The notes beneath the pieces were generated by a model that was given only the letters and a program-made list of their open reading frames with translations, did not search any database and was not told the DNA's origin. A stretch of 32,440 nt of DNA from a virus, in the IMG/VR virus record IMGVR_UViG_3300017992_000721, positions 1 through 32,440 of that record; one strand, written 5' to 3'. Position 1 is the first letter of the stretch; each line of letters opens with the position of its first letter. This document shows positions 45 to 28,100 of the stretch, piece by piece. The translations under genes were made by a program, and so were the position numbers.

Positions 45-386
45 TCACGGGCGGTTGGGGGCCTCCGAAGGACCCGCGGGCGGTGGGGGGGCGGGGCGGG
101 TCGCCCCCTCTGCTGGGTGGCTGATGCGGTTGGGCCCAAGCAGGCGTTGGCGGTAGCTGGCCGGCTCGGCCGGTCCTCCGTTGAGGCAGACGATTTCCCC
201 GCCGGCGGTCTCGGCAAACTGGATAGCGTAGCCTGGCGGCAGAAACGTCATGCCCGGTTGGGCGATCGTAATCTTGATCCGGGTTGGCTCCGTTGCGCTA
301 TGTTCGATCCGGACGTCGGACGCGATCCCGATCTCCTTCCCGTTGATTTCGATCAGGACCGGGCGGGGCTTTTTGACAAGGTGCAT
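45..386 (-). CDS. Hypothetical protein, 113 aa
   Basis: I do not recognise this protein. The first 60 or so residues alternate hydrophobic and charged residues, as in a small beta-rich domain. The last 25 residues are rich in Pro, Ala and Arg and look disordered. The ATG at 386 is preceded by a GAGGAG ribosome site about 8 nt upstream, which supports the start. It is the last gene of the leftward series visible here and lies downstream of the membrane-protein and protease genes, separated from them by a strong hairpin at 415-454. Function unknown. Confidence 0.6.
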   Translation of the reverse strand: MHLVKKPRPVLIEINGKEIGIASDVRIEHSATEPTRIKITIAQPGMTFLPPGYAIQFAETAGGEIVCLNGGPAEPASYRQRLLGPNRISHPAEGATRPAPPPPAGPSEAPNRP

Positions 387-475: not shown

Positions 476-574
476 CTATCCAAGCCCGGATATCTTGATT
501 AGCCCCCAGCCGACACCGTACGCCAGCAGGGGCCACAGAACCCGGAGCCATTTCCAGATCGTAAGCAGGCTCAT
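476..574 (-). CDS. Tiny single-pass membrane protein, 32 aa
   Basis: This small gene overlaps the stop codon of the upstream protease gene: ATG at 574-572 and TGA at 573-571 share an ATGA, a classic translational-coupling arrangement. The product is 32 residues, starts with MSLLTIWKWLRVLW and continues with a hydrophobic stretch rich in Leu, Gly and Trp, so it should form one short membrane helix ending in KISGLG. The coupling suggests it is made with the membrane-anchored protease. Possible roles are a partner of that protease or a holin-like lysis peptide, but the sequence does not decide. Stop TAG at 478-476. Confidence 0.6.
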   Translation of the reverse strand: MSLLTIWKWLRVLWPLLAYGVGWGLIKISGLG

Positions 575-2127
575 TTCTTCTCCGCCGGGGCTGCCGGCTC
601 TGCTTCGTCTCGCCCCAGGATGCGTCGGGCCAGTGCCCTCGCCTCCGCCACGTCCTCGTGGAACGCCGCTCGGAGCTTCGCCGTCTCGCTAACGGGGCTC
701 TGAATCCAGAGCGGATCTTCGCCGCCGGATCGCACGTAGTTGCGAACGTCCCTTACCATGTACTTCAGCAGCAACGCGAACGTCATCGCCACGGCCAAGA
801 CCAGCCCCATCCGCATCCAGCCGATTACTCCCTGATCGCGAACGCGGTCCTCGTACCAATCCTTCATGTACGCCTGGGCCTTCTCGATCTTTCCGGCGTC
901 TTCGCCTACTTGCTTTTCGACGGCCGCCATGCGGGCCTCGACCCGTTGGCTGATCGTGCCATTCGCCTTGATCGAGTCGGCCACCTTCTGTTGCTCGGCG
1001 GCCACCTGGTCGACTTTCGTGTTGACGGCCTCGGAGATATCGACCGCGCCCTGGACGGCCTCGGCGAGCTTCTCCCGCTCGGCAGCGGCGGCAACGTCGG
1101 CCTCTTGCAGCGCGGCAATCTCGGCCGTGTGTTGCTCGATCTCCTCCGGAGGCACGGCCGGAACCGGAACCGGTTCCGGGGCCGCCCGATCGGTTCGGAT
1201 CTCCACCAGCAGCGCGGCGACGTTGTCATTGAGCGAATCGAGCTTCGCGTTGGTTTCGCTCAGGTCGACCTTCGTCTCGACGTCCACGCTCGCCGGCGGC
1301 AGCGTCGGCCAGTTGTTTTGGTTTTGGTTCTGTTGCTGTTGCTGGGGTTGCTGTCCGCCGCCCCGCTGGTATCCCCATTCGCATCCGCCGCCGTTCGGGT
1401 CGCAGTACCCGCGACGCTGAAACAGAATCCCCGTCTCGGCCGTCTCGATCGAGGCGTTGATCCCGCCCCGCAAGGCCCGGCAGTAGGTGGCGATTCCCTG
1501 GGACTGGTCGGTCACGTTTCGCGTGTTGCGTTGCTTGAGCAGCCCAACCACATAGGTCCCCGTCTTATCAAAGATCGCCGAGCCGCTCCGGCCTTGCTCC
1601 GGGCCCGGACGGAAGAGGAGATTGCTGCCGGAGTAGCCGATCGCGTGGCCCCTCCAGAGGCTCGGCCAATGGCCCTCCGCGCATCCCACCGACAGGATCG
1701 TTTCGCCGGGTCGCACCACGTAATCCGCCGGTGCCGTCGGGATCGCCGGCGGCATCCGCCCTTGGAAGTGGCTCGCGTGCACGGCGATGATCGCCGCGTC
1801 GAGCCCCTTGTGGCGAAACTTGACCACGCCCTCCATCTTCCGGCTGGGGTGGCCGTCGCGATAGAATTGACACCACGCCCGCGGCCCGGTGGCCACGTGG
1901 TTGTTGGTCAGGATCCAGGCATAGCCGCCCGACACCTGGATACAACATCCGGTGCCGACGTCGTTCATCCCGTTGCCGGTCGGGGTCGACACCCGGCAGG
2001 TTGCGTCGATGCAGTCGCTCAACGCGCCTTCGCAGCACCGGCTACACAGCAGCATCACGGCAATGAAGCAAGCGGCCAACACCGCCGTCTTCAACACGTC
2101 TCGCAAAGTCGCTTCTTCGCGTTTCAT
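571..2127 (-). CDS. Secreted, membrane-anchored trypsin-like serine protease, 518 aa
   Basis: The start is the ATG at 2127, preceded by a perfect AGGAGG (2141-2136) at 8-nt spacing; the frame is open further upstream but that part is not protein-like. Residues about 10-35 form a signal peptide or membrane segment with several Cys. A trypsin-fold domain follows: TNNHV carries the likely catalytic His77, GLDAAII the Asp110, and QGRSGSAIF the Ser181. Around residues 235-260 there is a Gln/Asn-rich linker, then a long Ala/Glu/Lys-rich coiled coil, a membrane helix at about 436-457 and a charged cytoplasmic tail. The domain would lie outside the membrane, attached by the C-terminal helix. It is coupled to the 32-aa membrane gene. 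Roles in lysis, envelope change or superinfection exclusion are possible; substrate unknown. Confidence 0.85.
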   Translation of the reverse strand: MKREEATLRDVLKTAVLAACFIAVMLLCSRCCEGALSDCIDATCRVSTPTGNGMNDVGTGCCIQVSGGYAWILTNNHVATGPRAWCQFYRDGHPSRKMEGVVKFRHKGLDAAIIAVHASHFQGRMPPAIPTAPADYVVRPGETILSVGCAEGHWPSLWRGHAIGYSGSNLLFRPGPEQGRSGSAIFDKTGTYVVGLLKQRNTRNVTDQSQGIATYCRALRGGINASIETAETGILFQRRGYCDPNGGGCEWGYQRGGGQQPQQQQQNQNQNNWPTLPPASVDVETKVDLSETNAKLDSLNDNVAALLVEIRTDRAAPEPVPVPAVPPEEIEQHTAEIAALQEADVAAAAEREKLAEAVQGAVDISEAVNTKVDQVAAEQQKVADSIKANGTISQRVEARMAAVEKQVGEDAGKIEKAQAYMKDWYEDRVRDQGVIGWMRMGLVLAVAMTFALLLKYMVRDVRNYVRSGGEDPLWIQSPVSETAKLRAAFHEDVAEARALARRILGRDEAEPAAPAEKK

Positions 2128-2185: not shown

Positions 2186-2845
2186 TCATTTCTGGCGGAT
2201 TCTCGGGCCGTGGCAGCCGCGGCGGACCAGGGCGCGGCAGAGGCGGTTGGGCGACCAGGCCGAGGCGTTGCGGGTGCGGAATTCCCCGATCGACCGCAAC
2301 GCGGCGGGGACCAGTTCGGAGCAGTAGAGCGCGGCAAGGCTCTCCGGGCTCCGCAAGATCAGACGTCGAACCCAGCCGCAACAGGCCCCGCGGGCGCGGA
2401 CGGCGCCGAGGTAGTCGTAGGGGATGCGGCGGCGGGCGAAGGCGCGGAGATAGGCCGCCAGCTTGGCGGCGGAATGCCGGGTCACCGATCGGGCGATCGG
2501 GTAGCGGTAGACGCGGCCCCGGTAGGCCTCGATCGTGGCCTCGATCTCGTGGGCCTGCATACCCTCGACCGGCTCGCCGGCAAACAGGCAGGGGGCGGGG
2601 CTATCGTGGCGGGATTCCCATAGAACCAGGCGGTCGGGGTCGTCCGAGTGCAACGGCGCGACGATCGCCACATGGGAAATGTCGATCAGCGGGCGGCCCC
2701 AGGTGGCCAGGTTCACCAGCACACCCAGCCAGCATCGACCAGAAAAACCCAAAACGTCCCCGGCGTGCATCCCGTGGGAGGGGACGTTTTGGGCGTTGGA
2801 GGGCGGATTTTGGCCCAAGAAACGATCCGGGGGCGGCGTCGGCAT
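2186..2845 (-). CDS. YiiX/NlpC-P60-like permuted papain-fold hydrolase, 219 aa
   Basis: The protein has the order of motifs expected of YiiX-like permuted papain-fold enzymes: AGDVLGFSG near residue 28, ISHVAIV with the probable catalytic His58, a YDYLG stretch near 143, and LYCSELV with the probable nucleophile Cys175. Family members cut amide bonds or act on lipids or peptidoglycan; the substrate here is unknown. The ATG at 2845 is chosen because a GAGG lies 9 nt upstream and the homologous domain begins soon after. A 22-nt leader segment (2854-2875) that contains this ribosome site is identical to the leader of the glycosyltransferase gene starting at 22554. Confidence 0.75.
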   Translation of the reverse strand: MPTPPPDRFLGQNPPSNAQNVPSHGMHAGDVLGFSGRCWLGVLVNLATWGRPLIDISHVAIVAPLHSDDPDRLVLWESRHDSPAPCLFAGEPVEGMQAHEIEATIEAYRGRVYRYPIARSVTRHSAAKLAAYLRAFARRRIPYDYLGAVRARGACCGWVRRLILRSPESLAALYCSELVPAALRSIGEFRTRNASAWSPNRLCRALVRRGCHGPRIRQK

Positions 2846-2853
2846 AGTAAGAT

Positions 2854-2875
2854 GCCTCACGTCGCCCCCCGGCCC
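2854..2875 (-). promoter_or_regulatory. 22-nt leader repeat, copy 1 (contains the ribosome site)
   Basis: Read on the minus strand it runs GGGCCGGGG...GACGTGAGGC. The identical 22 nt occur at 22562-22583. In both places the GAGG ends 8-9 nt before an ATG. A TACAAT that could be a -10 box lies about 19 nt upstream of this copy. The pair may mark two genes controlled in the same way. Confidence 0.55.
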
Positions 2876-2973: not shown

Positions 2974-3822
2974 TCAGCGGGCGGCGGAGAAATCGGGCTT
3001 TCTTCCGCGGTGTTGGTAATACCAGTGCATTAGCTGGCGTTGTTTCGGCGGGGTCCACCCGCGGGCGGCCTGGTCGGGGGTTATCGCGTTGTGTTGCAGG
3101 GCGTCGAGCGGATGGAACCACATAGGGCAGGCGGGTATCCCGTGGGACTCGACGAATTCGCAGCGGTCCCAGTCGTCGGCGGGCGTCCCGGCGTAGCCGC
3201 ACAGGACCAGGGACCGGATGGACTTTTTGCGGATTCCCGCGGAGCGGAGGCGGTCGACGGCGACGGCCCAGTCGTCGCGGTGGGCGTCGTGGTCCAGGGC
3301 CAGCCGCACAATCGGCCGATGGATACGGGCGATTTGCGCGGCGTGGAAGTCGGTCAGCAGCCGGGCGTCGAGGCCCTGGTTGAAGTCGGCCCATCCCCAT
3401 CGGACCAGGCGGTCGACGACCCGTTCGACGTGTTGGGGGCTGGCGGCCAACAGGTTGTTATCGCAGATCACCGGGCCGTCGGGCCAGTCGAGCAGTTCGC
3501 GGAATTCCCCTTCGATCAGTCGGCGGCCGATCGCGCAGAATTGGCAACGGTTGGGGCAGCCGATCGTGGTTCGCGTGGCGTAGCGGTTCGCGCGCTGCAG
3601 CACCCCGGGCAGATCGTGGCCGATCGTGGCCGGGGTGTCGGCCAGGTAGTCGGGCATCAGTTCCACGGCCGGGCCGCCGACGATCCAGCGCGAAACCGTG
3701 AAATCCCGTTGAAGAATCCGGGCCTTGGCCGCCGGCAGCAACCACGTAAACGGGACCGACATATAGCCGACGTCGCCTTCGTTCCAGGTCAGCAAGTCTT
3801 TCGGCCAGGTGGTCTTCATCAT
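2974..3822 (-). CDS. Radical SAM domain protein, 282 aa
   Basis: The TTIGCPNRCQFCAIG segment carries the CxxxCxxC iron-sulfur motif (Cys89, Cys93, Cys96) that defines radical SAM enzymes. The following GPVICDNNLLAAS and GLDARLL segments fit strands of the partial TIM barrel. The C-terminal region ends with WYYQHRGRKPDF. Such enzymes cleave S-adenosylmethionine to make a radical; the target here cannot be read from sequence. Phage genomes often carry stand-alone radical SAM genes. Two start codons lie in tandem (MMK); the leader has only a weak AAGAGA. It follows a three-hairpin repeat element (3837-3893). Confidence 0.82.
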   Translation of the reverse strand: MMKTTWPKDLLTWNEGDVGYMSVPFTWLLPAAKARILQRDFTVSRWIVGGPAVELMPDYLADTPATIGHDLPGVLQRANRYATRTTIGCPNRCQFCAIGRRLIEGEFRELLDWPDGPVICDNNLLAASPQHVERVVDRLVRWGWADFNQGLDARLLTDFHAAQIARIHRPIVRLALDHDAHRDDWAVAVDRLRSAGIRKKSIRSLVLCGYAGTPADDWDRCEFVESHGIPACPMWFHPLDALQHNAITPDQAARGWTPPKQRQLMHWYYQHRGRKPDFSAAR

Positions 3823-3907: not shown

Positions 3908-3936
3908 TTTCACTCTTCACCCTTCACCCTTCACCT
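3908..3936. repeat. (TTCACCC)n heptamer array
   Basis: TTCACTC followed by CTTCACC-type units on the plus strand, touching the stop codon of the 107-aa gene at 3935. Confidence 0.75.
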
Positions 3937-4258: not shown

Positions 4259-4299
4259 GGAAGTTTGAAGGGTGAAGGGTGAAGGGTGAAGGGGGAAAC
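4259..4299. repeat. (GGGTGAA)n heptamer array abutting a start codon
   Basis: GGAAGTTTGAAGGGTGAAGGG and further 7-bp units fill the gap between the methyltransferase stop (4311) and the ATG at 4258. It occupies the place of the ribosome site. Confidence 0.8.
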
Positions 4300-4963: not shown

Positions 4964-5040
4964 TTGATTGATGAGTGCTGATTGTTGAAGTGGTACTTCC
5001 CTCGACAATCAACAATCGCCGATCAGCAATCGTCAATCTC
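4964..5040. repeat. (GATTGNN)n / (CAATCNN)n inverted heptamer element
   Basis: GATTGATGAGTGCTGATTGTT on one side and CAATCAACAATCG-type units on the other face each other around a TTGAAGTGGTACTTCC spacer, so the strand can fold into a hairpin. On the minus strand the first unit gives the stop codon (GAT TGA) of the DUF5131 gene. A decayed ACCCTT stretch lies between it and the next ATG. Confidence 0.8.
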
Positions 5041-5863
5041 TTTGTGGCTCATCGCTCGGAAACTCTTGCATCCTCAGCGGCGCGGGCCATTCGGCCGGGT
5101 CTTTCGAGACGCGGCCACCGACCGAGAGTTGTTTGATGAACAGGGGCACGCCGTGGGCGATCGCCCAGGCGGCCGTGTAGTCGACCCATTCGAGCGGACA
5201 GGGCCGGCGGTTCGGGCCCGACTCGCAACCGATAATCAGCCAGTCGAGCGGGTGACTGTCCGCGGACGACGGCTTGGCAGGGCCGACCGATCGGCCGTCG
5301 AGCAGGTCGACCTTGCGGAAGTCGATCGGCGTTAGCAGCGGTTCGGCCGAGACGAAACGACGCGCGGCGGGCACCCGCAGCAGGTGGGCCAGTTGGCCGA
5401 CGTTGGCCTGGGTCTCGACCGTGCAGCCGACCCAGACGTTTGCCGGCCAGCCGCCACTCCCCCAGCGTTCCGACCACAGCGGGGCCAGCAGCGGCCGAAA
5501 GTTCTCGGGGCGTTTCGTGAGAATCAACCAGGTCAGGTTGGGCGTGTCCTCGATCAGCCGCACCGTATCGCGGCGCGGCTGGACCAGATCGGGGTGGTCC
5601 TCGAGAAAATCGCCCATCGACTGCAAGAAGACTTTGTCGCGGCGGCCGGCGGCCTCGGCGGACCGGTTCCATTTCAGCGGCTCGGCGTAGGCCCCCGGCC
5701 CGCGGATTTTGCGGGGCGAATCGCCCCAGCAGTCGTGGCCGTAGCGGTGGCTGGTCGCCGCGGCGTAGCAGTTTTCGCAACCCCGGCGGCCGGGCAGTTT
5801 TTCGCAGCCCCACCAGGGATTAAAGGTGTGGTCGGTCCAGCCGATTTTGGAGTTGGCTCCCAT
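5033..5863 (-). CDS. Phage Gp37/Gp68 family protein (DUF5131), 276 aa
   Basis: The N-terminus MGANSKIGWTDHTFNPWWGC followed by a GCENCYA segment is the signature of the DUF5131 (Gp37/Gp68) family, common in phages and mobile elements. Conserved cysteines are Cys20, Cys29 and Cys32. Later family blocks visible are LTWLILTKRPENF, NVWVGCTVE, FVSAEPLL and WLIIGCESG. The biochemical role of the family is not settled. The start is the ATG at 5863 with GGAAG about 8 nt upstream; the 13 residues further upstream are not conserved. The protein ends DEPQRD, where the last codons and the TGA come from the GATTGA junction repeat. Confidence 0.88.
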   Translation of the reverse strand: MGANSKIGWTDHTFNPWWGCEKLPGRRGCENCYAAATSHRYGHDCWGDSPRKIRGPGAYAEPLKWNRSAEAAGRRDKVFLQSMGDFLEDHPDLVQPRRDTVRLIEDTPNLTWLILTKRPENFRPLLAPLWSERWGSGGWPANVWVGCTVETQANVGQLAHLLRVPAARRFVSAEPLLTPIDFRKVDLLDGRSVGPAKPSSADSHPLDWLIIGCESGPNRRPCPLEWVDYTAAWAIAHGVPLFIKQLSVGGRVSKDPAEWPAPLRMQEFPSDEPQRD

Positions 5864-5896
5864 TGGCGTCTTCCTTTCGGGCCATGAGCGGTAATT

Positions 5897-5933
5897 CATC
5901 AATCAGCAATCAGCAATCGGCAATCTTCAATCC
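5897..5933. repeat. (CAATCNN)n half element
   Basis: Five CAATC units with 7-bp period (CAATCAGCAATCAGCAATC...) and no facing GATTG array. On the minus strand GGATTGA at the right edge supplies the stop codon of the 334-aa reading frame. Confidence 0.75.
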
Positions 5934-6931
5934 GTTTGCTGTTCGTCGTCGGCCCCTTCCTTCTCGGTCACATCGACCACGCAGACGGCGGCGCGGCCGA
6001 CCACGGCAACCGGGTGGGCCCACTTCCCGGCCGGCTCCGGGGTCCATCGCACGGCACAGAACAACGCGGCAAGCTGGCGGGGATCGCAAACGGTACGAAT
6101 GATCTTGTGGCCGGCTTCGTCGCGTTCGTCCAGGTTGCGGATCACGTCGGCGGCGTCGAGCATTTCGCGAAGCGTGTACTTCGACAGGTCGGGCGGGTCG
6201 CCGGCGGGCCGCATTTCGTCGTCGGCCGCGTACATCGAGTGGTACAGGCAGGCTGCGTTGATCTCCTCGGCCCGCTGGCGGTCCATGGAAGTTGGAAGGG
6301 TGAAGGGTGAAGGGTGAAGGCCGGCGGCCTTGGCGCAGGCCATTTCGGCGATTCGCTCGGCGGCGTTGATGACGGTATTCGATAGCGTGGTGGCGGCAAT
6401 CGCGCAGTCGGCCAGGTGGTCCGTCGGCTCGGCTCGCTTCTCGCGGGCGCGTAGTTCGCGGACCAGGTCGGCCGTCTGGCTCATCACGTCAATCGGGCCT
6501 TTGTGGCTCGCCAGGCCGGCCACCTCGGCAAGGGTGGTCGCGGCGGCGCTGAGCACCCCGGCATGGGCCCGGGCTCGGTGGGCGGCCTTCGCGGCGGCCG
6601 TGGCCACGGCGTCGTTGCGTTCGGACAACTGGCGTACCATGGCGCCCAGTTGGCGGACCAGGTCGGCCGGGTCGACGAGTCCGTTGTCGTCGGGCGTGGC
6701 GTCCAGGCTTAATATCTCCACGGCGTCCAGTAGGGCGTTGCACGTCCGGGCGTAGCATGTCACCCGCGCGGCCGCCTGGTCGATCAGGTCGTCGGGGATC
6801 TCGCCTTCGGGGTCGACGCCCATGGCTTCGGCCAGGCGGAGCGTTTGTTCGGTCACTTCGCGGAGCCGAACGAATTCGACGGGGACAAAAGCGGCCGCTT
6901 CCAGTTTGGCGGTGGCATTTTCGCTGAGCAT
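5927..6931 (-). CDS. Hypothetical 334-aa frame, probably two genes joined through a repeat
   Basis: No family recognised. Residues 1-205 form an Ala-rich helical protein (MLSENATAKLEAAAF...). Then come about 14 residues, AGLHPSPFTLPTS, that are only a translation of the TTCACCC repeat. The sequence then restarts with MDRQRAEEINAACLYH (ATG at 6286) and continues 119 residues to the end. At other junctions the same repeat precedes a start codon, so this looks like two genes whose stop codon between them was replaced by the array. A single fused protein and two separate products are both possible. The first start has a GAAAGGAAACC ribosome site. The stop codon lies in a GATTGA unit. Confidence 0.6.
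   Translation of the reverse strand: MLSENATAKLEAAAFVPVEFVRLREVTEQTLRLAEAMGVDPEGEIPDDLIDQAAARVTCYARTCNALLDAVEILSLDATPDDNGLVDPADLVRQLGAMVRQLSERNDAVATAAAKAAHRARAHAGVLSAAATTLAEVAGLASHKGPIDVMSQTADLVRELRAREKRAEPTDHLADCAIAATTLSNTVINAAERIAEMACAKAAGLHPSPFTLPTSMDRQRAEEINAACLYHSMYAADDEMRPAGDPPDLSKYTLREMLDAADVIRNLDERDEAGHKIIRTVCDPRQLAALFCAVRWTPEPAGKWAHPVAVVGRAAVCVVDVTEKEGADDEQQTD
6287..6320. repeat. (GGGTGAA)n array inside a reading frame
   Basis: GGAAGTTGGAAGGGTGAAGGG and following units lie in frame within the 334-aa frame and end at an internal ATG (6286). Because the unit is 7 bp, losing or gaining one unit would change the frame. Confidence 0.8.
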
Positions 6932-7613: not shown

Positions 7614-7653
7614 GGGTCGGGGTTTCCTTTCTTGAAGTGGTGGGGAGAAAGCG

Positions 7654-7752
7654 TGATTGATGATTTCCGATTGATGATTGTTGATTGTTGAAGTTGGAGC
7701 TTCGCGTTCTTCCTTCGTCAATCGACAATCGGCAATCATCAATCGTCAATCC
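7654..7752. repeat. (GATTGNN)n / (CAATCNN)n inverted heptamer element
   Basis: The plus strand has GATTGAT GATTTCC GATTGAT GATTGTT GATTGTT, then GAAG and a short spacer, then CAATCGA CAATCGG CAATCAT CAATCGT CAATC. The two halves are complementary. On the minus strand the first unit supplies the last codons and TGA of csrA. Confidence 0.85.
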
Positions 7753-7930
7753 GTTTCTGGCTCACGGCTTCTCTCGGCTCCTTGCGGTTGGCGTCGTCGC
7801 GGACGATCGGCACGCAGCGCGGGGCGTCGATCGCCAGGGCGACCTTTCCGGATTTACGGGGTTTCAGCACAGTGACAACGGCGTTCCCGATCGTCACGGA
7901 CTGGCCAGGTCGTCGGTCGATAATCAGCAT
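7739..7930 (-). CDS. csrA: CsrA-family RNA-binding regulator, 63 aa
   Basis: The sequence MLIIDRRPGQSVTIGNAVVTVL followed by GKVALAIDAPRCVPIVRDD matches CsrA along its length: the MLxL start, the G(E/Q)S(V)xIG turn, the VxLxIxAP strand and the conserved Arg of the VxRxE segment. CsrA dimers bind GGA motifs in mRNA leaders and usually block ribosome access. The last residues (QKRIDD) and the stop codon come from the GATTG junction repeat, so the normal C-terminal tail seems to have been replaced. The leader has GAAAGGAAACC. Many early genes here share that leader, which contains an AGGA core that CsrA could bind (inference). Confidence 0.88.
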   Translation of the reverse strand: MLIIDRRPGQSVTIGNAVVTVLKPRKSGKVALAIDAPRCVPIVRDDANRKEPREAVSQKRIDD

Positions 7931-11037: not shown

Positions 11038-11268
11038 TCAGGTGTAGCGGAGGATGCGAATTCCACGGGTCACGCCCTCATCGCGTTCGATGTAGCCCTT
11101 CTTGGCCAGGGCTTCGAGATGGCCGACGGTCGCGCTAATGTGCACCCCAAGCCGGCGGGAGATTTCGCGGATCGTCGGCGGATAGCCGCGGTCGGTGAGC
11201 GATTCCCGGATGATCTCCAGGACTTCCGCTTGCCGGTCGGTCAGTGGGGAAATCGTTGTGCTGGCCAT
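11038..11268 (-). CDS. LexA-type winged-helix repressor without peptidase domain, 76 aa
   Basis: The sequence LTDRQAEVLEIIRESLTDRG, then YPPTIREISRRLGV, a recognition-helix region HISATVGHLEALAKKGYIERD and a final RGIRIL strand match the DNA-binding half of LexA over its full length. The C-terminal Ser/Lys autoprotease is absent; the frame ends right after the winged helix. It is therefore a small DNA-binding regulator that cannot self-cleave. Being the first gene left of attP, it may control the early leftward operon or compete with host LexA at SOS boxes (inference). Confidence 0.82.
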   Translation of the reverse strand: MASTTISPLTDRQAEVLEIIRESLTDRGYPPTIREISRRLGVHISATVGHLEALAKKGYIERDEGVTRGIRILRYT

Positions 11269-16976: not shown

Positions 16977-17062
16977 TCTGATTGATGATTGATTGTCGAG
17001 GGAGTTCGCTCGCCTGTCTTCCTTCATCAATCAGCAATCGCTAATCATCAATCGTCAATCTC
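16977..17062. repeat. (GATTGNN)n / (CAATCNN)n inverted heptamer element
   Basis: GATTGATGATTGATTG on the left and CAATCAGCAATCGCTAATC... on the right, around a spacer with CGAGGGAGTTCGC. On the minus strand the right edge supplies the end (GRD, GAT TGA) of the glycosyltransferase gene. Confidence 0.8.
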
Positions 17063-17954
17063 TTCCTGGCTCGTGGCGTCGCGCGCGATCAAGGGCGGCG
17101 AGTACGGTCTCCACAATCAGCCGCGGGTCGAACAACTCGCGGGCTCGATCGCGGATCGGATTGAGGTCCCACTCGTGGAGGTCCTCCACGGCGGAAACGA
17201 CGGCCGCCGCGTCGGCCAGGTCGTCGATGTACAGGCCGGTTTGGTCGGGCTCGATCCAGGGGGCGGTCGAGCGGTGGCCGATGACGGGGCAGCCGGACAG
17301 CAGGATCTCAGCCAGGGCCAGGGGGCCGTGGTCGTCGGCGGAGAGGTAGACCGCGGCGCGGCTCTGACGGGCCAGGGTCAAGAGCGTGTTGCGGCTGTGG
17401 GTCCCGTATCGCAGCACCACGGCCCGGGGCCAGCGGTCGCGCAGGGCGGTGACCAGGTCGTCGTAGGGGCCCGATTTGTAGTAGATCAGCAAGGGGAAGA
17501 ACGGCAGGGTTCCCAGGTCGGGCGGCTCGGGCCAGACGGGATAGGGGACCGGGCAGATCTCCGCGGCGTTGTGTTGGCCCAGGCCCCGGCGGATGCAGTC
17601 GGCATACTCGGGCGTATGGCAGAAGATGAGCCGGCAGGTCGGGGCCCGGGCGATCGTCCGCTCGTGGCGGGTGGCGTTGGGACGGACGCGGTTCACCCAG
17701 AGCATGTTGGGGCCGATGATGAACGGCCGGCCGGCGGTCGCGTCGCGGGCGGCGGCTCGGGCCTGGCCGGCGTTCCAATACCAAGGGATCGCGGTATCGC
17801 AAGCGGAGGCCGCGATCGAGAGCCATTCGGGCAGGCCGAACTTCTCGAGGTAGTGGACCAACCCGGCCATCCCGACGGCCGGCCCGCGGCGGATCTCGCC
17901 TTCGGCCGGCGGGGAGTAGATCAGGCGGACGGTGGAAGGGTGAAGGGCGGTCAT
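17055..17954 (-). CDS. GT-B glycosyltransferase (GT4-like), 299 aa
   Basis: The C-terminal half has the GT4 signature: DDHGPLALAEILLSGCPVIGH with the Glu of the EX7E-type donor site, then APWIEPDQTGLYIDDLADAAAVV. Upstream are YYKSGPYDDLVTALRDRWPRAV and SRAAVYLSADD strands. The N-terminal acceptor domain is short. ATG 17954 follows the TTCACCC repeat (CTTCAAACTTCC-ATG) without a ribosome site; the frame upstream is repeat. The end HEPGRD is provided by the GATTGA repeat. It is one of four glycosyltransferases between 17 and 22.6 kb. Confidence 0.75.
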   Translation of the reverse strand: MTALHPSTVRLIYSPPAEGEIRRGPAVGMAGLVHYLEKFGLPEWLSIAASACDTAIPWYWNAGQARAAARDATAGRPFIIGPNMLWVNRVRPNATRHERTIARAPTCRLIFCHTPEYADCIRRGLGQHNAAEICPVPYPVWPEPPDLGTLPFFPLLIYYKSGPYDDLVTALRDRWPRAVVLRYGTHSRNTLLTLARQSRAAVYLSADDHGPLALAEILLSGCPVIGHRSTAPWIEPDQTGLYIDDLADAAAVVSAVEDLHEWDLNPIRDRARELFDPRLIVETVLAALDRARRHEPGRD

Positions 17955-17988
17955 GGAAGTTTGAAGGGTGAAGGGTGAAGGGTGAAAC
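17955..17988. repeat. (GGGTGAA)n array abutting a start codon
   Basis: GGAAGTTTGAAGGGTGAAGGG and further units from the ATG at 17954 to about 17988. From there to 18051 nothing else is seen. Confidence 0.8.
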
Positions 17989-18051
17989 ATCGGGCGAAAT
18001 CGGCCATTTTTGCGGGCCTCGGGGTAGGGTTTCGGGGGCAAATGTCGGGTT

Positions 18052-18525
18052 TTATGGTCCGGAGAAAGGGCATTTTCGGACCGAGGGGGTGATTTTGCAG
18101 GAGGAGGCGGAGGCGGCGATTCGTTCGGCCAGGCGGCGGACGTTGCGGGAGAAGTCGCCGTCGACGCTGGCCAGGGTGGATCGTTCGAGGGCGCGGGCCG
18201 CGGATTGGGCGACGTAGGAGACGTGGCAGTCCTGGACCCGGGCGGTATCCACCAATAGCGGCAACGCAGCGGCGGCATGGTCGGGGGTCAGGCCGGCCCG
18301 TTGGATGATATCCAGCGCGGCCAGTTGGTCGATCAGCGGGTTATAGAGACAACGGGCCTCGGTGACCGGGACCAGGTAGCCGCGGCGGCCGGGCCGCATG
18401 ATCCGCCAACGGCGGCCGAGCCGGGCCAGGACGAAGACCCCGCGGCGGACCCCGATCTCGATCTGGTTTTCCATTTCGGCCCGCGTGGCCCGGGCCTTCT
18501 TCATCCGTCGGCGGCTGAGTTTCAT
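18052..18525 (-). CDS. Hypothetical basic protein, 157 aa
   Basis: No family recognised. It starts MKLSRRRMKKARATRAEMEN and contains VRRGVFVLARLGRRWRIMRPGRRGYLVPV, a small beta-rich basic module, then helices (YNPLIDQLAALDIIQRAGLT). Its start overlaps the stop of the 84-aa gene (ATGA at 18525-18522), so translation is coupled. Pro-rich tail ends ITPSVRKCPFSGP. Confidence 0.55.
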   Translation of the reverse strand: MKLSRRRMKKARATRAEMENQIEIGVRRGVFVLARLGRRWRIMRPGRRGYLVPVTEARCLYNPLIDQLAALDIIQRAGLTPDHAAAALPLLVDTARVQDCHVSYVAQSAARALERSTLASVDGDFSRNVRRLAERIAASASSCKITPSVRKCPFSGP

Positions 18526-18776
18526 GGGTTGGGGCCCTCAAGTTGAACAACCGGGATGGCGTCAGTCGGACAGCGATATACCCACTCGACGTCGCCAACA
18601 CGGTAGCGGCGGGGTCGCATCGCCTCGAGTTCCATAACCTGGGCGATCAGGTCGGCGTTTATCTTGGCCAGCGCGACGATACACTCGTGGGCGGGTCGGC
18701 CGGCGCGGTGGAAGGCGGCCACAACCGCGTTGTTGCGGACGGCGTCGGCGTAGCTTTCGATCGGCGGCGCTTTCAC
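18522..18776 (-). CDS. Hypothetical protein, 84 aa
   Basis: No family recognised. MKAPPIESYADAVRNNAVVAAFHRAG is helical, and ALAKINADLIAQVMELEAMRP is a second helix; the rest is a short beta segment (YRVGDVEWVYRCPTDAIPVVQL). ATG 18776 is preceded by GAAAGGCCC. It is coupled to the 157-aa gene by an ATGA overlap and follows the GT2-like gene's region. Confidence 0.55.
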   Translation of the reverse strand: MKAPPIESYADAVRNNAVVAAFHRAGRPAHECIVALAKINADLIAQVMELEAMRPRRYRVGDVEWVYRCPTDAIPVVQLEGPNP

Positions 18777-18827
18777 GGACGGGGCCTTTCTCTTGGCGGC
18801 GGAGGAATGGTCGCGGGCGTGGGGATA

Positions 18828-19643
18828 CTAAAACGGTCTTGCCGTTACTCCCGGGCGAATGTTGGGATTGTCGAGGTCGATTCCCGGCGGGTCGTAGACG
18901 GTTAGCTCGGCCTTGGCCGTCGCGCCGCGGCCCATGCGGTGCCAGCCCCGGGGGCCCATGCCGGATAGGTGGCGGTGGCCTGTGTGGGTGCGGTGGATCG
19001 AGTAGGGTTTCCATCCGTAGGCGATGGGGTCGGCCTCGGGCGTGTTGCAGTTGGAGAGCTTGGCGGCCAGGGCCGCGTCTTCGCCGTTGCTTTGGTCCGG
19101 CGGGTAACCCCCGGCTTCACGGAATACATTGCAGGAAAAGGCCCAGGCGGCGTGGTAGCATTTCCAGGCCGGGTCGGCCGGGGTGTTGGTGGCGATCTGG
19201 ATCAGGTCGCCGGACCCGTCGCGGGTAACGTCGAGCACGACCGACGGGCGGATCCAGTCGGCATCGGAGACGGCCATCGTCTCGGCCTGGGCTTTCAGGG
19301 CGTGGGGCAGATAGAGATCGTCATCGTCCCAGGGGGCAATTACGTCGGTGTCGGGGTCGATCAGGCTGGCCGCGGCGTTGCGCTTCTGGCCGAGGCTGTC
19401 GAAGCGGACACCGGTCGAGACGACCCGCCAACGGTCGCCGGTCGGCTGGTCGGGGTACTGGCCGGCGTCGTCAAGGATCACCAGCCGGCGGTTTTCGTAG
19501 GTCTGGCGCTCGAAACAGCGGATCATCTGGCCGAGTAGCTCCGGCCGGCGGAACGTACAGCAAACGGCGGCGATTCTTAGTTGCGTGCGAGGGCTTCCGG
19601 GAGTATGGGGGCCGGGTGAAGCGGGACGGGGCGAGTTGGTCAT
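18828..19643 (-). CDS. GT-A glycosyltransferase (GT2-like), 271 aa
   Basis: RIAAVCCTFRRPELLGQMIRC at residues 23-43 is the N-terminal nucleotide-sugar-binding strand of GT2 enzymes, and RLVILDDAGQ follows. DVIAPWDDDDLYLPHAL carries the DxD metal-binding motif. SNGEDAALAAKLSN is the ED segment of the catalytic base, and the C-terminal part has GWKPYSIHRTHTGHRH. ATG 19643 directly follows a TTCACCC-type repeat (CTTCGGACTTCCC-ATG) and lacks a ribosome site. It probably adds a sugar to a surface polymer or virion protein. Confidence 0.8.
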   Translation of the reverse strand: MTNSPRPASPGPHTPGSPRTQLRIAAVCCTFRRPELLGQMIRCFERQTYENRRLVILDDAGQYPDQPTGDRWRVVSTGVRFDSLGQKRNAAASLIDPDTDVIAPWDDDDLYLPHALKAQAETMAVSDADWIRPSVVLDVTRDGSGDLIQIATNTPADPAWKCYHAAWAFSCNVFREAGGYPPDQSNGEDAALAAKLSNCNTPEADPIAYGWKPYSIHRTHTGHRHLSGMGPRGWHRMGRGATAKAELTVYDPPGIDLDNPNIRPGVTARPF

Positions 19644-19757
19644 GGGAAGTCCGAAGGGTGAAGGGTGAAGGGTGGATTGATGATTGCCGATTGATGATTG
19701 CTGATTGTTGAAGTGGAGCGTATTACCTTCGGCAATCAACAATCGCCGATCATCAAT
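19644..19757. repeat. Composite element: (TTCACCC)n plus (GATTGNN)/(CAATCNN)
   Basis: Plus strand: GGAAGTCCGAAGGGTGAAGGG units to 19673, then GATTGAT GATTGCC GATTGAT GATTGCT GATTGTT, GAAG, a short spacer, and CAATC units ending at the TGA of the sulfotransferase. This is the full composite, filling the gap from one stop codon to the next start codon. Confidence 0.85.
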
Positions 19758-20376
19758 AGCCAAATACCTCGTAGTCGGCGGCGTAGTAGTCGGTAAGGGC
19801 TTGGGCGGAGGAGAGGGAGAGGGCCAGAGCGGACAAATCAAGTGGGTACTGCGCGGCGTTTTTGTGTGGCAGGGGATGGGCGCGATGATCGAGGCCGCAG
19901 TAGTTGGCCAGGCGGGCGTAGTCCTGGGTCAGGTTCTCGTAGCGGCCGACGAAATCGACGATGATTTTTCGCGGGCCGGCACATAGGAACCGATGCTGGG
20001 GGCGGAAGTGGACGTCGTCGCGGACGCGCTTCGGCATCGTGGGAAACGCGGCGGCAAAGGCCTCGAGCGTCGCGTAGTCGCGGACCCAGGCGGATATGGC
20101 GGCGTTGGCGGTCGCCCAACGGTGGTCGGGCGGCATATTGAAAAGGTAGTGGTAGGCCGAGGCGAAGCGGGTGAGCGGATCGCGGACGAAGCCGGCCTTG
20201 ACGCATCGCTTCCAGGACGTGGGAGTCAGGCGGCGGCGGACGTCGCGGGCGCGGACGTGGCCGGCCCATTGGTCCCAGATGTCCAGGGCTTCGAAGCTAC
20301 TGCCCCCGGTACGTGGGACGTGAAAATATAACAGGTTGTATTCGTCGGAGTAGTTGCAGGCGGCGGGGAGGTTCAT
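19753..20376 (-). CDS. Sulfotransferase (Sulfotransfer_2 family), 207 aa
   Basis: LLYFHVPRTGGSSFEAL at residues 15-31 is the 5'-phosphosulfate loop that binds PAPS. KAGFVRDPLTRFASAYHYLF at about 60-79 is the 3'-phosphate loop with Arg65 and Ser73. The C-terminus (YYAADYEVFGY) is typical of carbohydrate sulfotransferases. It would move sulfate from PAPS to a glycan hydroxyl. Start ATG 20376 has AAAGGAAC. The stop TGA lies in the GATTG repeat. It lies inside the glycosyltransferase cluster, so the product is probably a sulfated surface sugar. This gene is unusual in a phage. Confidence 0.85.
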   Translation of the reverse strand: MNLPAACNYSDEYNLLYFHVPRTGGSSFEALDIWDQWAGHVRARDVRRRLTPTSWKRCVKAGFVRDPLTRFASAYHYLFNMPPDHRWATANAAISAWVRDYATLEAFAAAFPTMPKRVRDDVHFRPQHRFLCAGPRKIIVDFVGRYENLTQDYARLANYCGLDHRAHPLPHKNAAQYPLDLSALALSLSSAQALTDYYAADYEVFGY

Positions 20377-20483
20377 GGGGCGTTCCTTTCTTTTCCGTGT
20401 TTTCCGTGGTTCTCTCGGCGGCTCGGCGTCTCGGCGGTTGGCTCGTCTTCCTTACACGGGCCGGGGGCCCATGCTACGGGCGG
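20377..20483. other. Gap with short dispersed repeats
   Basis: No gene. It has the ribosome site of the sulfotransferase gene, TTTTCCGTGTTTTCCGTGGTT (a 9-bp-period repeat), TCTCGGCGGCTCGGCGTCTC (20412-20440 family) and the 27-nt repeat at 20451-20477. Confidence 0.6.
20451..20477. repeat. 27-nt repeat with GC palindrome, copy 1
   Basis: CTTACACGGGCCGGGGGCCC and the following ATGCTAC are identical at 21476-21502. The core CACGGGCC/GGCCCATG can fold into a hairpin. Both copies lie at the 3' end of a glycosyltransferase gene. Confidence 0.7.
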
Positions 20484-21134
20484 CTACTTGAACAGGTCGT
20501 TCGGGTTCGCCAGCGTTCCGATGAAATCGGCGGACTGGCGCAAGGGGCCGGCCAGGTCGTCGCCTAGGGCCGAATTGCCGATGCCGATGTGTTCGACCAG
20601 GCTGGGCGAGTGATACCAACAGGCCAGGCCGGCGGTTTGCAGGAATTTGCCGATCTCGGCGTCGGCGTTGTAGTTGGACTGGCGCGGGCCAAGCGTTTCC
20701 ACGATTCGCTCCGCCGAAAGGCGTGGAAAAATCCAGGCCTGGGAACCGGCCAGGGCCCAGCCGCGGTTCTGGGTTCGCCATTGGCGGCCGAGGCCCCGGC
20801 GGCGCGGGGCGTAGGCGGCCGGGCAGTAGGGGGAGACCAGGCCGATCGTGTCGGGCTCGGCTGGCCACAACTCGCGGTCGAGGTAGTCGGCCAGGCCGCG
20901 GCAGAGGATGACGTCGTCTTCCAGTAGAAAGATCGCCTCGGCCTTGGGGCGGGCGTCGAGCGTGGCGGCCAGGGCCGAGAGGTAGGCCGTGTAGTGGCCC
21001 GACGGCGGGCTGTCCTCGTGGATCCAGACCTCGGGCCCGTCGTAGCCGGCCTGGGCCAGGCTGGCGACGGCGGTCTGCAGGGTGGCCTTGGGCCGCGGGG
21101 AGGTCAGGACGGTGATGGCGAGATTGATTGGCAT
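20484..21134 (-). CDS. GT-A fold glycosyltransferase, 216 aa
   Basis: INLAITVLTSPRPKATLQTAV begins a GT-A fold; AEAIFLLEDDVILCRGLADYL carries the DDV metal/nucleotide motif, and GLVSPYCPAAYAP, WALAGSQAWIFPRL and SLVEHIGIGNSAL match the central and C-terminal blocks of small GT25/GT2-related enzymes. ATG 21134 is chosen because the protein-like sequence starts there and GGAAAA precedes it. The stop TAG is 7 nt from a 27-nt repeat shared with the GT4-like gene at 21499. Confidence 0.7.
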   Translation of the reverse strand: MPINLAITVLTSPRPKATLQTAVASLAQAGYDGPEVWIHEDSPPSGHYTAYLSALAATLDARPKAEAIFLLEDDVILCRGLADYLDRELWPAEPDTIGLVSPYCPAAYAPRRRGLGRQWRTQNRGWALAGSQAWIFPRLSAERIVETLGPRQSNYNADAEIGKFLQTAGLACWYHSPSLVEHIGIGNSALGDDLAGPLRQSADFIGTLANPNDLFK

Positions 21135-21155
21135 GGGGCGTTTTCCTGTTGGGAT

Positions 21156-21184
21156 GAACCGCCGAGACGCGGAGACGCAGAGAA
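21156..21184. repeat. CCGCCGAGACGCGGAGACG repeat family
   Basis: GAACCGCCGAGACGCGGAGAC and the next bases lie right beside the stop of the 82-aa gene. Related pieces are at 20412-20440, 21450-21475 and 16928-16940. Confidence 0.5.
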
Positions 21185-21433
21185 TTAGACGGGGCAATTG
21201 TCGTCTTCGAGGGGCCCGCAACAGGCAATCGAGTGGCGGGTCGGCAGGTCCAGCAGCGTTGTCGGCTGGGCGTAGAATTGGACGGCGGCGGCGCGGGCAA
21301 CGGCCTCGGTGCAAGGGGTGATCGCGAAAATCGACGACGGGCCAAGGTGCTTTTCGAAGGCGGGGCCGGCGTAGCGTTGGTGGCCCATCACTTCGACAAT
21401 GGCCCAGGTTTCGGCGGGGGTTTCTTCCGGCAT
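21185..21433 (-). CDS. Small conserved phage-type protein, 82 aa
   Basis: ETWAIVEVMGHQRYAGPAFEK and then FAITPCTEAVARAAAVQFYA is a pattern I recall from a family of small phage proteins of unknown function that begin TWAIVE(I/V)MGH. The middle part usual in longer members appears missing, so this is a short form. Ends in PLEDDNCPV. ATG 21433 has GAAAGGAAACC. It sits between two glycosyltransferase genes. Confidence 0.6.
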   Translation of the reverse strand: MPEETPAETWAIVEVMGHQRYAGPAFEKHLGPSSIFAITPCTEAVARAAAVQFYAQPTTLLDLPTRHSIACCGPLEDDNCPV

Positions 21434-21475
21434 GATTGGTTTCCTTTCTCGGCGTCTCTGCGCCGCGGCGGTTGT

Positions 21476-21502
21476 CTTACACGGGCCGGGGGCCCATGCT
21501 AC
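21476..21502. repeat. 27-nt repeat with GC palindrome, copy 2
   Basis: Identical to 20451-20477. Here the repeat contains the TAG stop codon (21501-21499) of the GT4-like gene. Confidence 0.7.
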
Positions 21503-22554
21503 TTGAGGGATGAAAATAGGGCCTCCCAGGCTTCCCAGATCGGGCCCGGGTCGGTTAGTTTCTGGACGCGGGCGCGGGCGGCGTGGGCCATCTTGAGCCG
21601 GCGGGCGTCGTCGTGGTGGAGGAGGTTCAGGGCTGCGACGAAGTCGTCGGGGCCGTCGCATAGAAAACCGGTCGAGCCGTGGCGGACCATTTCGACCCAG
21701 CCGCCGCGGTTGTCAACGATCAGCGGGCAGCCGGTGGCCATCGCCTCCAGGCCCACGCGGGGCCAGTTCTCCAGGGCAGAGCCGCCGGGCTGGCAGTAGG
21801 CGTGCAACGTGGAGAGGAAATACTCGACGTTCGCGCCGAAGCCGCCAGGCGGATAGGTCAGGACGTGGGTCGGCGGTTTTCCTATGGCCTTTTCGAGCTT
21901 GGGCAGCCAGCCGAGGACCAGGGCCGTTTTCGGGTTGTCCACCGCGTCGAAGATCTGCCAGGTGTGGCGGCTGAACTTGTGGCGGTCGGGGCGGCTGATG
22001 CGGCCGAAACGGAACGCGTGGTTGGGGCCGCAGCGTTTTTCCGGACGGAACGGGAAATCATCGCAGCAAAAGGCCCCGGGGATCAGGTGGCCGTGTTCGG
22101 GGGTGTAGCCGTAGGGCCGTAGTGCTTCTTCGTGGGTGGTCCGTTGGAAGCGGGATTGAAAGACGTAGGCGTCGGCCGGGCCGTTTTGCTTGGCGTCTCG
22201 GCGGGTCAGGGGCAGCGGTTCGCCCATGCAATCGACCACCACCAGGCGGCACCAGAAGCGGCGCAGATCGGCGGCGTAGTGCTTGGTGGCGTGTTGGGAG
22301 CAGAACAGCACGGCGATCGAGCCGTGCAGATCGGTCAGGTGGGCCAGGTCGCTCAGGTCCTCCGGCGGCGGGAAGATTTCGCAGCCGATACCGCGGAGGC
22401 GGTCGACCCAGACGGCGGGGGCGGCCTGGTCGGTGACGACGGAGACCTCGAGGCCGTGTTCGCGCCAGAGGCGGAGCGTGTGCCAGATTTCGGTCTTGGC
22501 CCCGCCGATGTCGCCGGGGCTGCCGAAGAGAAAGACGGGGCGGTGCGTGGGCAT
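21499..22554 (-). CDS. GT-B glycosyltransferase (GT4-like), 351 aa
   Basis: A full GT4 layout: an N-terminal FLFGSPGDIGGAKTEIWHT loop, DAYVFQSRFQRTTHEEALRPY, then the C-terminal donor domain with FRFGRISRPDRHKF and NWPRVGLEAMATGCPLIVDN plus GWVEMVRHGSTGFLCDGPDD. The Glu of VGLEAM is the likely EX7E residue. ATG 22554 lies 8 nt after GAGG in a leader element identical to that of the YiiX-like gene. It is probably the first gene of the sugar cassette. Confidence 0.85.
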   Translation of the reverse strand: MPTHRPVFLFGSPGDIGGAKTEIWHTLRLWREHGLEVSVVTDQAAPAVWVDRLRGIGCEIFPPPEDLSDLAHLTDLHGSIAVLFCSQHATKHYAADLRRFWCRLVVVDCMGEPLPLTRRDAKQNGPADAYVFQSRFQRTTHEEALRPYGYTPEHGHLIPGAFCCDDFPFRPEKRCGPNHAFRFGRISRPDRHKFSRHTWQIFDAVDNPKTALVLGWLPKLEKAIGKPPTHVLTYPPGGFGANVEYFLSTLHAYCQPGGSALENWPRVGLEAMATGCPLIVDNRGGWVEMVRHGSTGFLCDGPDDFVAALNLLHHDDARRLKMAHAARARVQKLTDPGPIWEAWEALFSSLK

Positions 22555-22583: not shown

Positions 22584-22641
22584 AGTTCAGACGAGATCAG
22601 GATAGCCGGTATCGGGCGGCGGTAGTAGGGGGGAGGGAGGA

Positions 22642-22676
22642 GGAAGTTTGAAGGGTGAAGGGTGAAGGGTGAAAGA
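22642..22676. repeat. (GGGTGAA)n heptamer array
   Basis: GGAAGTTTGAAGGGTGAAGGG and two further units. Here it does not touch a start codon. Confidence 0.8.
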
Positions 22677-22828: not shown

Positions 22829-22872
22829 GTTTCACCCTTCACCCTTCACCCTTCACCCTTCACCCTTCACTC
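22829..22872. repeat. Longest (TTCACCC)n array
   Basis: Five to six 7-bp units on the plus strand. On the minus strand its edge gives the last codons and the TGA (22862-22860) of the 131-aa gene. Confidence 0.85.
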
Positions 22873-23255
22873 TTCCACCCGGGGCATGTGCCCCGGCAGA
22901 GTCTTGCGGCGTGGTGTTGGTGCCAGTGGCAGGGGGTTCCGGTTTCGGTGCAGGCGCCGGCGGCGACGCTGAACAGGTCGCGGGGGCATTGTTCGCAGAT
23001 TTGCAGCAGCCGGACGATTTCGCCGTTGGAGCGGGTCGCCTTCCCGTCGGCGACCAGTTCGGCAACGCAATCGGCCAGCGTCCGTTTTTCCCCCTCTTCA
23101 TCCTTCGAACTTCTGACCGGGCAGCGGCGCGAGACCTTCTCCGGCGGGTAGGTGCCGAGGCGGGTGTGGCCGCAGTCGGGACACCTCAAGGCGTACAGCC
23201 GCGGGGCGTTGGGCTCGTCGATCGTCCGCAGCAGTTCGTATCGGCAGCGAGTCAT
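22860..23255 (-). CDS. Cysteine-rich, zinc-ribbon-like protein, 131 aa
   Basis: No named family. LRCPDCGHTRLGTYPPEKVSRRCP and ICEQCPRDLFSVAAGACTETGTPCHWHQH hold spaced Cys and His residues that could bind zinc. Its start overlaps the stop of the 175-aa gene (ATGA at 23255-23252). Its last residues (GWKSEG) and stop come from the heptamer array, so the original end may be lost. The place at the end of the tail module suggests a minor virion or assembly role. Confidence 0.6.
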   Translation of the reverse strand: MTRCRYELLRTIDEPNAPRLYALRCPDCGHTRLGTYPPEKVSRRCPVRSSKDEEGEKRTLADCVAELVADGKATRSNGEIVRLLQICEQCPRDLFSVAAGACTETGTPCHWHQHHAARLCRGTCPGWKSEG

Positions 23256-27956: not shown

Positions 27957-28100
27957 GGCGGAAGTTTGAAGGGTGAAGGGTGAAGGGTGAAGGGTTGATT
28001 GATGATGGCCGATTGATGATTGATGATTGTTGAAGTGGGAAGGGCGGCGTTTCGCGTTCTTCCTTCGTCAATCGACAATCGGCAATCATCAATCGTCAAT
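27957..28100. repeat. Composite element: (TTCACCC)n plus (GATTGNN)/(CAATCNN)
   Basis: Plus strand: GAAGTTTGAAGGGTGAAGGG units to 27994, then GATTGATGATGGCCGATTG and further GATTG units, a spacer, and CAATCGACAATCGGCAATC and more. The right edge supplies the stop (GTD, GAT TGA) of the frameshift-encoded tail gene. It fills the whole gap between that gene and the tape measure ATG. Confidence 0.85.

Follow-up and report, generated by a model that had tools for sequence, protein, structure and literature searches.

What does a membrane-tethered protease do for a virus? The question is raised by the left end of IMG/VR virus record IMGVR_UViG_3300017992_000721, a record of 32,440 bases, the whole of which we call the window. 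There, a gene for a predicted trypsin-fold serine protease is preceded by a gene for a predicted cysteine hydrolase and followed by an open reading frame (ORF) of 32 amino acids (aa). An initial annotation had taken the protease and the tiny protein for a pair that might form an exclusion, lysis or envelope-processing system suited to planctomycete cell envelopes. We propose, at close to even confidence, that the protease belongs to a late envelope-breaching (lysis or egress) cassette in which it would cut envelope proteins. The genes at this end of the window and the parts of the protease are, in the order of transcription:

2186-2860, minus strand: predicted permuted papain-fold (C92/YaeF-YiiX-like) cysteine hydrolase, the next gene upstream of the protease
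571-2127, minus strand: predicted membrane-tethered trypsin-fold serine protease, 518 aa, ATG start, stop codon TGA at 571-573
2020-2106, minus strand: N-terminal hydrophobic segment of the protease, residues 8-36, a predicted signal peptide or signal anchor (Kyte-Doolittle)
1540-1956, minus strand: protease domain, residues 58-196, Pfam Trypsin_2 (PF13365), triad H77, D110 and S181
835-1149, minus strand: helical stalk, residues 327-431 (AlphaFold2 helices)
751-831, minus strand: C-terminal hydrophobic helix, residues 433-459, then a basic tail (Kyte-Doolittle and AlphaFold2)
476-574, minus strand: cationic, Trp-rich small protein of 32 aa, whose ATGA overlaps the protease stop at 571-574 (TCAT on the plus strand)
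45-386, minus strand: ORF of 113 aa without a family match in Pfam or PHROGs

The Trypsin_2 match to protease residues 58-196 (E 1e-10, 43 bits) passed the cut-off of 27.6, and the triad aligned with that of the relatives, which confirms Ser181 as the initial annotation had placed it. An AGGAGG at 2136-2141 lies, on our reading, 8 nt 5' of the ATG. AlphaFold2, run with a 13-row alignment, predicted a beta-barrel domain, a low-confidence Q/N-rich linker and helices at 327-389, 392-431 and 434-466 (mean predicted local distance difference test score (pLDDT) 68, predicted template modelling score 0.44; the 10-residue blocks from 61 to 140 at 83-91 pLDDT). Likeness to the HtrA/Deg proteases extends to the trypsin fold, the same triad and a Foldseek probability of 1.00 to HtrA, DegS and DegP chains. 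VIA-align gave Z 22.0 to DegS delta-PDZ 2qf0 (root-mean-square deviation (rmsd) 5.6, 189 residues aligned) and Z 21.8 to DegS 3gdu (rmsd 2.6, 183 aligned). DegS is also membrane-tethered and periplasmic, which for the window protease is predicted only. The window protease differs from DegS in its long stalk, its C-terminal anchor, its phage late locus and its lack of a PDZ domain, at an identity of about 18%. The Pfam scan, taken to E 1, showed no PDZ match; what comes after the protease domain is the low-confidence linker and then the helices. We therefore consider that the protease works like HtrA/Deg enzymes without filing it among them.

Hydrophobic segments were called on the Kyte-Doolittle scale (19-aa window, at least 1.6), and topology was judged from this scale and charge only. 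The window protease has two such segments, 8-36 and 433-459, the second of which coincides with AlphaFold2 helix 434-466 and agrees with the C-terminal membrane helix named in the initial annotation. In several relatives we read an A-x-A site directly after the N-terminal segment. Because hydrophobic segments lie at both ends and a basic tail follows the C-terminal one, an exported protease head with a C-terminal inner-membrane anchor is the expected, predicted arrangement. Between them, 155 residues separate WPTLP (273-277) from the membrane helix. The stalk had been described as a coiled coil. A long helical stalk is supported, and its coiled-coil nature moderately so: heptad periodicity in the window stalk did not beat shuffling (220 of 2000 shuffles as high), whereas segments that we chose in the relatives L033, L012, L036 and L052 did (29, 5, 5 and 0 of 1000 shuffles as high). 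The sole NCBIfam match of the protease was SMC, of coiled-coil type (E 0.0011).

Such a protease had also been called unusual for a phage. Consistent with this, PHROGs gave no match to it at E 0.1, and tblastn at E 0.01 found no relative of it in 50,697 phage records. However, BFVD lists trypsin-like peptidases of uncultured Caudovirales (for example, A0A6J5RC96 and A0A6J5NXY4), which likewise have the trypsin fold and come from tailed phages, a comparison made by listing names only.

We collected relatives from scans of IMG/VR and GTDB contigs, which left 25 loci, the window included, once same-contig loci and copies (L004 and L006, copies of L005 and L036; L059 and L060, copies of L058 with identical coordinates and E-values) had been removed; L064 and L066 were counted separately despite identical domain rows. 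Upstream counts omit L009, L020 and L041, which lie at contig edges, and counts of the C-terminal helix and of downstream genes omit L017, which is cut. Genes were called with a purpose-written codon-model script rather than a standard gene finder, except that the L066 neighbour and the L020 partner were taken from ORFs. Catalytic Ser and Asp, together with Cys149, are conserved throughout the 25 loci, and the His is conserved in all 24 that reach its alignment column. The C-terminal hydrophobic helix is present in 20/24 proteases (missing in L043, L062, L063 and L067), and an N-terminal hydrophobic segment exceeds the threshold in 19/25; of the six without one, one is truncated. In the protease tree, L063 and L067 sit on long branches. 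In L062 (4992-6284), which is without a predicted C-terminal membrane helix, we read collagen-like Gly-X-X repeats in place of the stalk.

Tethers fall into two lengths. From the WPTLP-like motif to the membrane helix, 133-155 residues were counted in 10 loci (window, L033, L012, L036, L037, L039, L042, L009, L052 and L057) and 29-40 residues in four (L041, L053, L055 and L058); the length was unmeasurable in the other 11, among them L020, which has 137 under a looser rule. Downstream of each short-tether protease, as the first or second gene, comes a membrane protein of 124-147 aa. The four are homologous, and each was found by a profile built from the other three:

L041, 12178-12621: membrane protein of the 124-147-aa family, E 5.7e-22
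L053, 1506-1880: the same, E 3.9e-34
L055, 3552-3956: the same, E 1.3e-38
L058, 6265-6657: the same, E 6.9e-7

L058 copies aside, no further member was found at E 0.1 in 28 searched stretches, some of them short. In this small sample, the pattern suggests that tether length and partner set covary.

Three relatives lie in metagenome-assembled genomes (MAGs) titled Planctomycetota, Pirellulales and Phycisphaerae, and these titles support a planctomycete host. The protease as a host housekeeping gene was rejected: among 392 genomes of the phylum to which the Pirellulales MAG G001 belongs, only G001 itself matched (E <= 1e-20), in a scan where at most four candidates were scored per genome in the rows shown and weaker relatives would fall below the E threshold. 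In G001 the gene stands some genes before terminase-like and portal-like genes (the portal by our reading). The same MAG encodes a host protein (L032, 769-2439) that fuses a domain read as thioredoxin-like with a related trypsin-like domain; it matches the protease at E 2.3e-14 and has no predicted membrane helix. The phage protease domain may derive from this fusion protein.

The more telling recurrent neighbour, which the initial annotation did not mention, is the hydrolase upstream. Its start is uncertain: we read an ATG at 2860 or 2785, and the gene caller picked a GTG at 2722. A profile of the family matched PDB entry 3kw0, named cysteine peptidase, at E 5.5e-6 (yiiX 2if6 at E 0.082). We take 3kw0 to be a permuted papain enzyme. 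Likeness to the permuted papain/NlpC-P60 group (C92, YaeF/YiiX) thus comprises this profile match and the conserved His, Glu/Asp and Cys; His, Glu and Cys are invariant in 7/7 rows of the hydrolase alignment. The family differs from C92 in that the PF05708 cut-off was not reached: six of the seven members, including the window's, gave no match, and that of L037 scored 16.1 bits against a cut-off of 27. NCBIfam had no match for the two hydrolases scanned. PHROGs placed the hydrolase in phrog_1128, 'enoyl-CoA hydratase/carnithine racemase-like' of class moron, a name that we suspect to be wrong for it. As the AlphaFold2 model (mean pLDDT 67.9; best Foldseek match E 4.6) matched nothing in the PDB, we used sequence evidence alone for this protein.

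The hydrolase stands one or two genes upstream of the protease in 11/22 loci (next gene in 10, second gene in L036); five of these (L052, L053, L055, L057 and L058) lie outside the hydrolase profile. It was not found in the stretches searched of L042, L043, L056 and L061-L067. Ten of the 11 have no hydrophobic segment, that of L055 has one at 59-77, and the L053 hydrolase is cut. Among 12 virus records the hydrolase occurs anywhere in 10, being absent from G009 and the 5-kb G405 and lying away from the protease in G008; seven of the ten supplied the profile rows, and G402 and G403 are near-copies of one of those. Hydrolase and protease adjoin in both the window and L012, yet the two hydrolases are only 20% identical in the seven-row alignment, where the window row does not begin at the start codon. 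The window hydrolase is nearest that of L036 (46%), whereas the window protease is 36% identical to that of L036 and 61% to that of L012. Hydrolases of the same family therefore seem, from these identities, to have been exchanged beside the protease while the pairing stayed, which favours a functional link of the two enzymes.

We then compared the places that the group occupies. It lies on the same strand as late structural and packaging genes, among or beside them: before the terminase genes in L033, L037 and L042 and between head/neck-type and tail-type genes in L036, L017 and L020, several gene names in both sets being our reading. Past the group in L033 come a GDSL-domain protein, the small and large terminase and the portal (read from Pfam matches), and in L037 a methylase-like gene and the large terminase (phrog_38, E 7.4e-39). 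In L042, a contig of a Pirellulales MAG, we read host fliM- and proA-like genes to the left. Because the group is found at differing places near or in the late region, it appears to behave like a mobile cassette. The window itself matches tape measure, tail tube, integrase and other phage genes in Pfam and PHROGs. It is probably a fragment, since the 25 Pfam families listed, of 37 matched by 38 window proteins, include no terminase, portal or major capsid family.

Small membrane proteins are the third recurrent element. The next gene downstream of the protease has a predicted membrane helix in 13/24 loci: L033 (a 37-aa protein), L036, L039, L042, L041, L020, L009, L052, L053, L055, L056, L057 and L058. 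Outside the 13 are the window and L012, whose next genes are below threshold, and L067, where the N-terminal segment is lipoprotein-signal-like; no membrane helix was predicted in the next gene of L037, L043 and L061-L066. A 4-base overlap with the next gene was present in 9/18 loci measured. Partners with an N-terminal helix and a charged tail form a family at six loci (L036, L042, L020, L009, L055, where it is the second gene, and L056), and a profile built without L009 found the L009 member at E 3.5e-36. At E 0.001 or better the partners match phrog_1009, phrog_2990 and phrog_15236, all families without an assigned function. An inner-membrane helix with a periplasmic helical domain is visible in outline in the protease and in the partners that combine a transmembrane helix with a coil; their Rz-like PHROG matches are weak (E 0.022 or worse).

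The 32-aa ORF shares its ATGA with the protease stop as the initial annotation stated, and it is, judged from its sequence conservation, a real gene. In each of the two closest relatives a homologue comes after the protease (37 aa in L033, again with an ATGA; 33 aa in L012, after a 2-nt gap). Eleven residues are invariant across the three members, and differences in all three pairs are fewest at second and most numerous at third codon positions. A chance overlap was rejected because of these homologues and this codon-position pattern. The family evolves fast (for example, 16 nonsynonymous against 7 synonymous codon differences between the window and L002). That the protein is a membrane protein, as annotated, is weakly predicted (best 19-aa Kyte-Doolittle mean 1.26; 1.77 and 1.09 in the homologues). 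The family is limited to one clade of three loci, whose proteases group with support 100/100, and its profile found no fourth copy in 4,229 ORFs of 28 stretches (next best E 0.78); the ORF as a universal partner was therefore rejected. The outcome for the proposed pair is mixed: the small gene is present in 3/3 loci of the close clade and in 0/22 others, many of which have a different small membrane protein instead, and the pair was thus too narrow a unit.

Classical lysis genes were looked for in the 12 virus records. Phage_lysozyme, Amidase_2, SLT and Peptidase_M15_4 were each found in 0/12, in a search that did not include CHAP, GH19, GH25, NlpC_P60 and Amidase_3; among 14 control genomes the same four were positive in 3, 6, 8 and 1. 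Glyco_hydro_108 was likewise 0/12, and as no control was positive its absence was not used. No peptidoglycan hydrolase was among the Pfam families listed for the window (25 of 37, from 38 proteins) or for G004 (25 of 42, from 33 proteins); in the second half of G004 (L034) gene calls are unreliable, and 9 proteins of that half were scanned. Compared with known phage lysis cassettes (endolysin, holin, i-spanin), the group is alike in having a hydrolase, small membrane proteins with helical tails and varying places near late genes. It differs in that the central conserved enzyme is a tethered protease, that no holin or spanin was recognised among the scanned partners and that the four classical endolysin families were not found in the 12 records.

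A protein-directed attack would suit what is reported of the unusual planctomycete envelope. Most peptidoglycan-synthesis genes of Planctopirus limnophila are non-essential ('certain' genes in the abstract; PMC10632474), and Cys-rich YTV proteins are reported in planctomycete cell-wall preparations (PMC8567305). Among the papers listed for a few search phrases, judged by title and abstract opening, we found no description of phage exit from planctomycete cells.

In the envelope-breaching cassette that we propose, expression would be late and the planctomycete envelope would be opened at the end of infection. The protease would be exported and held in the inner membrane by its C-terminal helix, and the stalk (105 residues, about 15 nm if fully helical) would project the catalytic head into the periplasm. 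Envelope proteins there, whether Cys-rich proteins of the wall, lipoproteins or anchors of the outer membrane, may be its targets. The C92-like enzyme could be a cytoplasmic, lysin-like hydrolase let out through a membrane lesion, with the small membrane proteins supplying holin- or spanin-like steps. A lytic phage plausibly needs a peptidoglycan- or lipid-directed hydrolase as well as a protease, and the cassette may offer both. Lysis or envelope processing suited to planctomycetes is the likeliest of the ideas in the initial annotation; it fits the predicted architecture, the late-gene position and the recurrent neighbours.

Several observations weigh against this proposal. Partner matches to known holin and spanin families are at chance level (best E 0.005, in PHROGs), and because no holin or Rz-like match is better than this we do not call the partners holins or spanins. 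The hydrolase is absent from within two genes in 11/22 loci and lies seven genes upstream in the closest relative, L033; its family is backed by sequence only. The 32-aa family is restricted to three loci. In L064-L066 the protease stands among head-tail-type genes: capsid-type genes lie on one side of it and a connector-type gene, with an overlap of 4 bases, on the other, several of these names again being our reading. Neither a C92-like gene in the stretch nor a membrane helix in the next gene accompanies it. The modelled protease domain resembles regulatory or quality-control proteases (DegS, DegP). Missing lysis genes are weak evidence: the records are without a completeness estimate, may each be a fragment and were searched for only some of the lysin families, which makes the absence of classical endolysins supportive only. 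On the host side, the accounts cited place YTV genes in Planctomycetales only (PMC8567305) or in the class Planctomycetia (PMC10632474), and one protease relative, that in the Phycisphaerae MAG, lies outside this range. Planctomycetes are moreover reported to possess peptidoglycan and to be disrupted by lysozyme (PMC4432640), so that a protein wall is not the sole barrier.

A stronger form of the proposal is that lysis itself is proteolytic. Here a stalk-mounted tethered protease, a permuted-papain hydrolase and small membrane proteins would replace the endolysin-spanin set, and long stalks and short tethers would be two designs of one machine. We regard this stronger form as possible but doubtful.

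Superinfection exclusion, which the initial annotation had also raised, is the rival that survives best, although we consider it unlikely. In a cell already infected or lysogenic, the tethered protease, anchored or targeted by the small membrane protein, would act in the periplasm and destroy either a receptor or the protein with which a further phage enters. The window record does carry an integrase, a prophage-like stretch of the Pirellulales MAG (L010/G001) retains an open protease gene, and membrane-anchored prophage proteins are described as an exclusion theme (PMC10286901). However, the protease gene shares its strand with the structural and packaging genes that surround or adjoin it, a placement that favours late lytic expression over exclusion. 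The recurrent linkage to a second hydrolase also speaks against it, and PADLOC matched only LmuA (window protease, E 0.00046, residues 41-118) and LmuB (L052 protease, E 0.0012, in its helical part).

Next, the two enzymes might be unrelated neighbours, the C92-like protein acting as a virion-associated entry enzyme and the protease being an independent passenger gene. Permuted papain-like amidases are described among the wall-degrading proteins of Bacillus phage tail modules (PMC9703825), and several loci place the hydrolase between genes of neck type and tail type. Against this, the protease and the hydrolase remain linked although genome position and hydrolase subtype vary, and we judge the explanation improbable. 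Hardly better placed is a role in periplasmic quality control or stress signalling, in which the phage enzyme, acting like DegS or DegP, would ease envelope stress or set off a response of the host. The closest folds are DegS, DegP and HtrA, and DegS too is membrane-anchored, but the stalk and C-terminal anchor stand in the place of a PDZ domain and the anchor is at the opposite end from that of DegS. Least probable is that the protease removes surface or receptor proteins of the host late in infection and thereby keeps released virions from sticking to debris, since, although predicted export and a long stalk would suit the shaving of envelope proteins, a C-terminal inner-membrane anchor would bar access to the cell surface and the linkage to the C92-like hydrolase would be left unexplained.

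Elsewhere in the window, a radical-SAM-like protein (2974-3822; phrog_9298, E 1.6e-18) and a DUF5131/phrog_2045 protein (5033-5902; E 5.3e-50 and 2.2e-59) are encoded upstream of the cassette. CsrA-like and LexA DNA-binding-like proteins are phage-encoded at 7739-7930 and 11038-11268, and Pfam matches to glycosyltransferases and a sulfotransferase fall in 17055-22554, the assignment to genes being our reading in both cases; these sugar and sulfate enzymes perhaps modify surface or virion glycans. The adjoining tail-region genes at 29011-29658 and 29683-30354 appear to have arisen by tandem duplication, with DNA copies at 29018-29314 and 29699-29995 that are 88% identical. A 7-bp-periodic repeat, CACCCTTCANNCTTCACCC, has 25 overlapping matches with at most two mismatches against 0.01 expected by shuffling. 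Its clusters (2930-2969, 3911-3936, 4263-4295, 6298-6323, 17959-17984, 19656-19674, 22639-22671, 22833-22879 and 27957-27996) were read as intergenic or at gene starts. Repeats of a second dispersed family, of TCAATCGACAATC type, lie at 4966-5047, 5877-5941, 7626-7760, 17005-17069, 19646-19774 and 27968-28110 and in places adjoin the CACCCTTCANNCTTCACCC repeats.

If the cassette does act in envelope breaching, phage lysis would be extended to proteolysis. The tethered protease, conserved and, from its sequence, apparently active, is a testable handle on which proteins hold the planctomycete envelope together.

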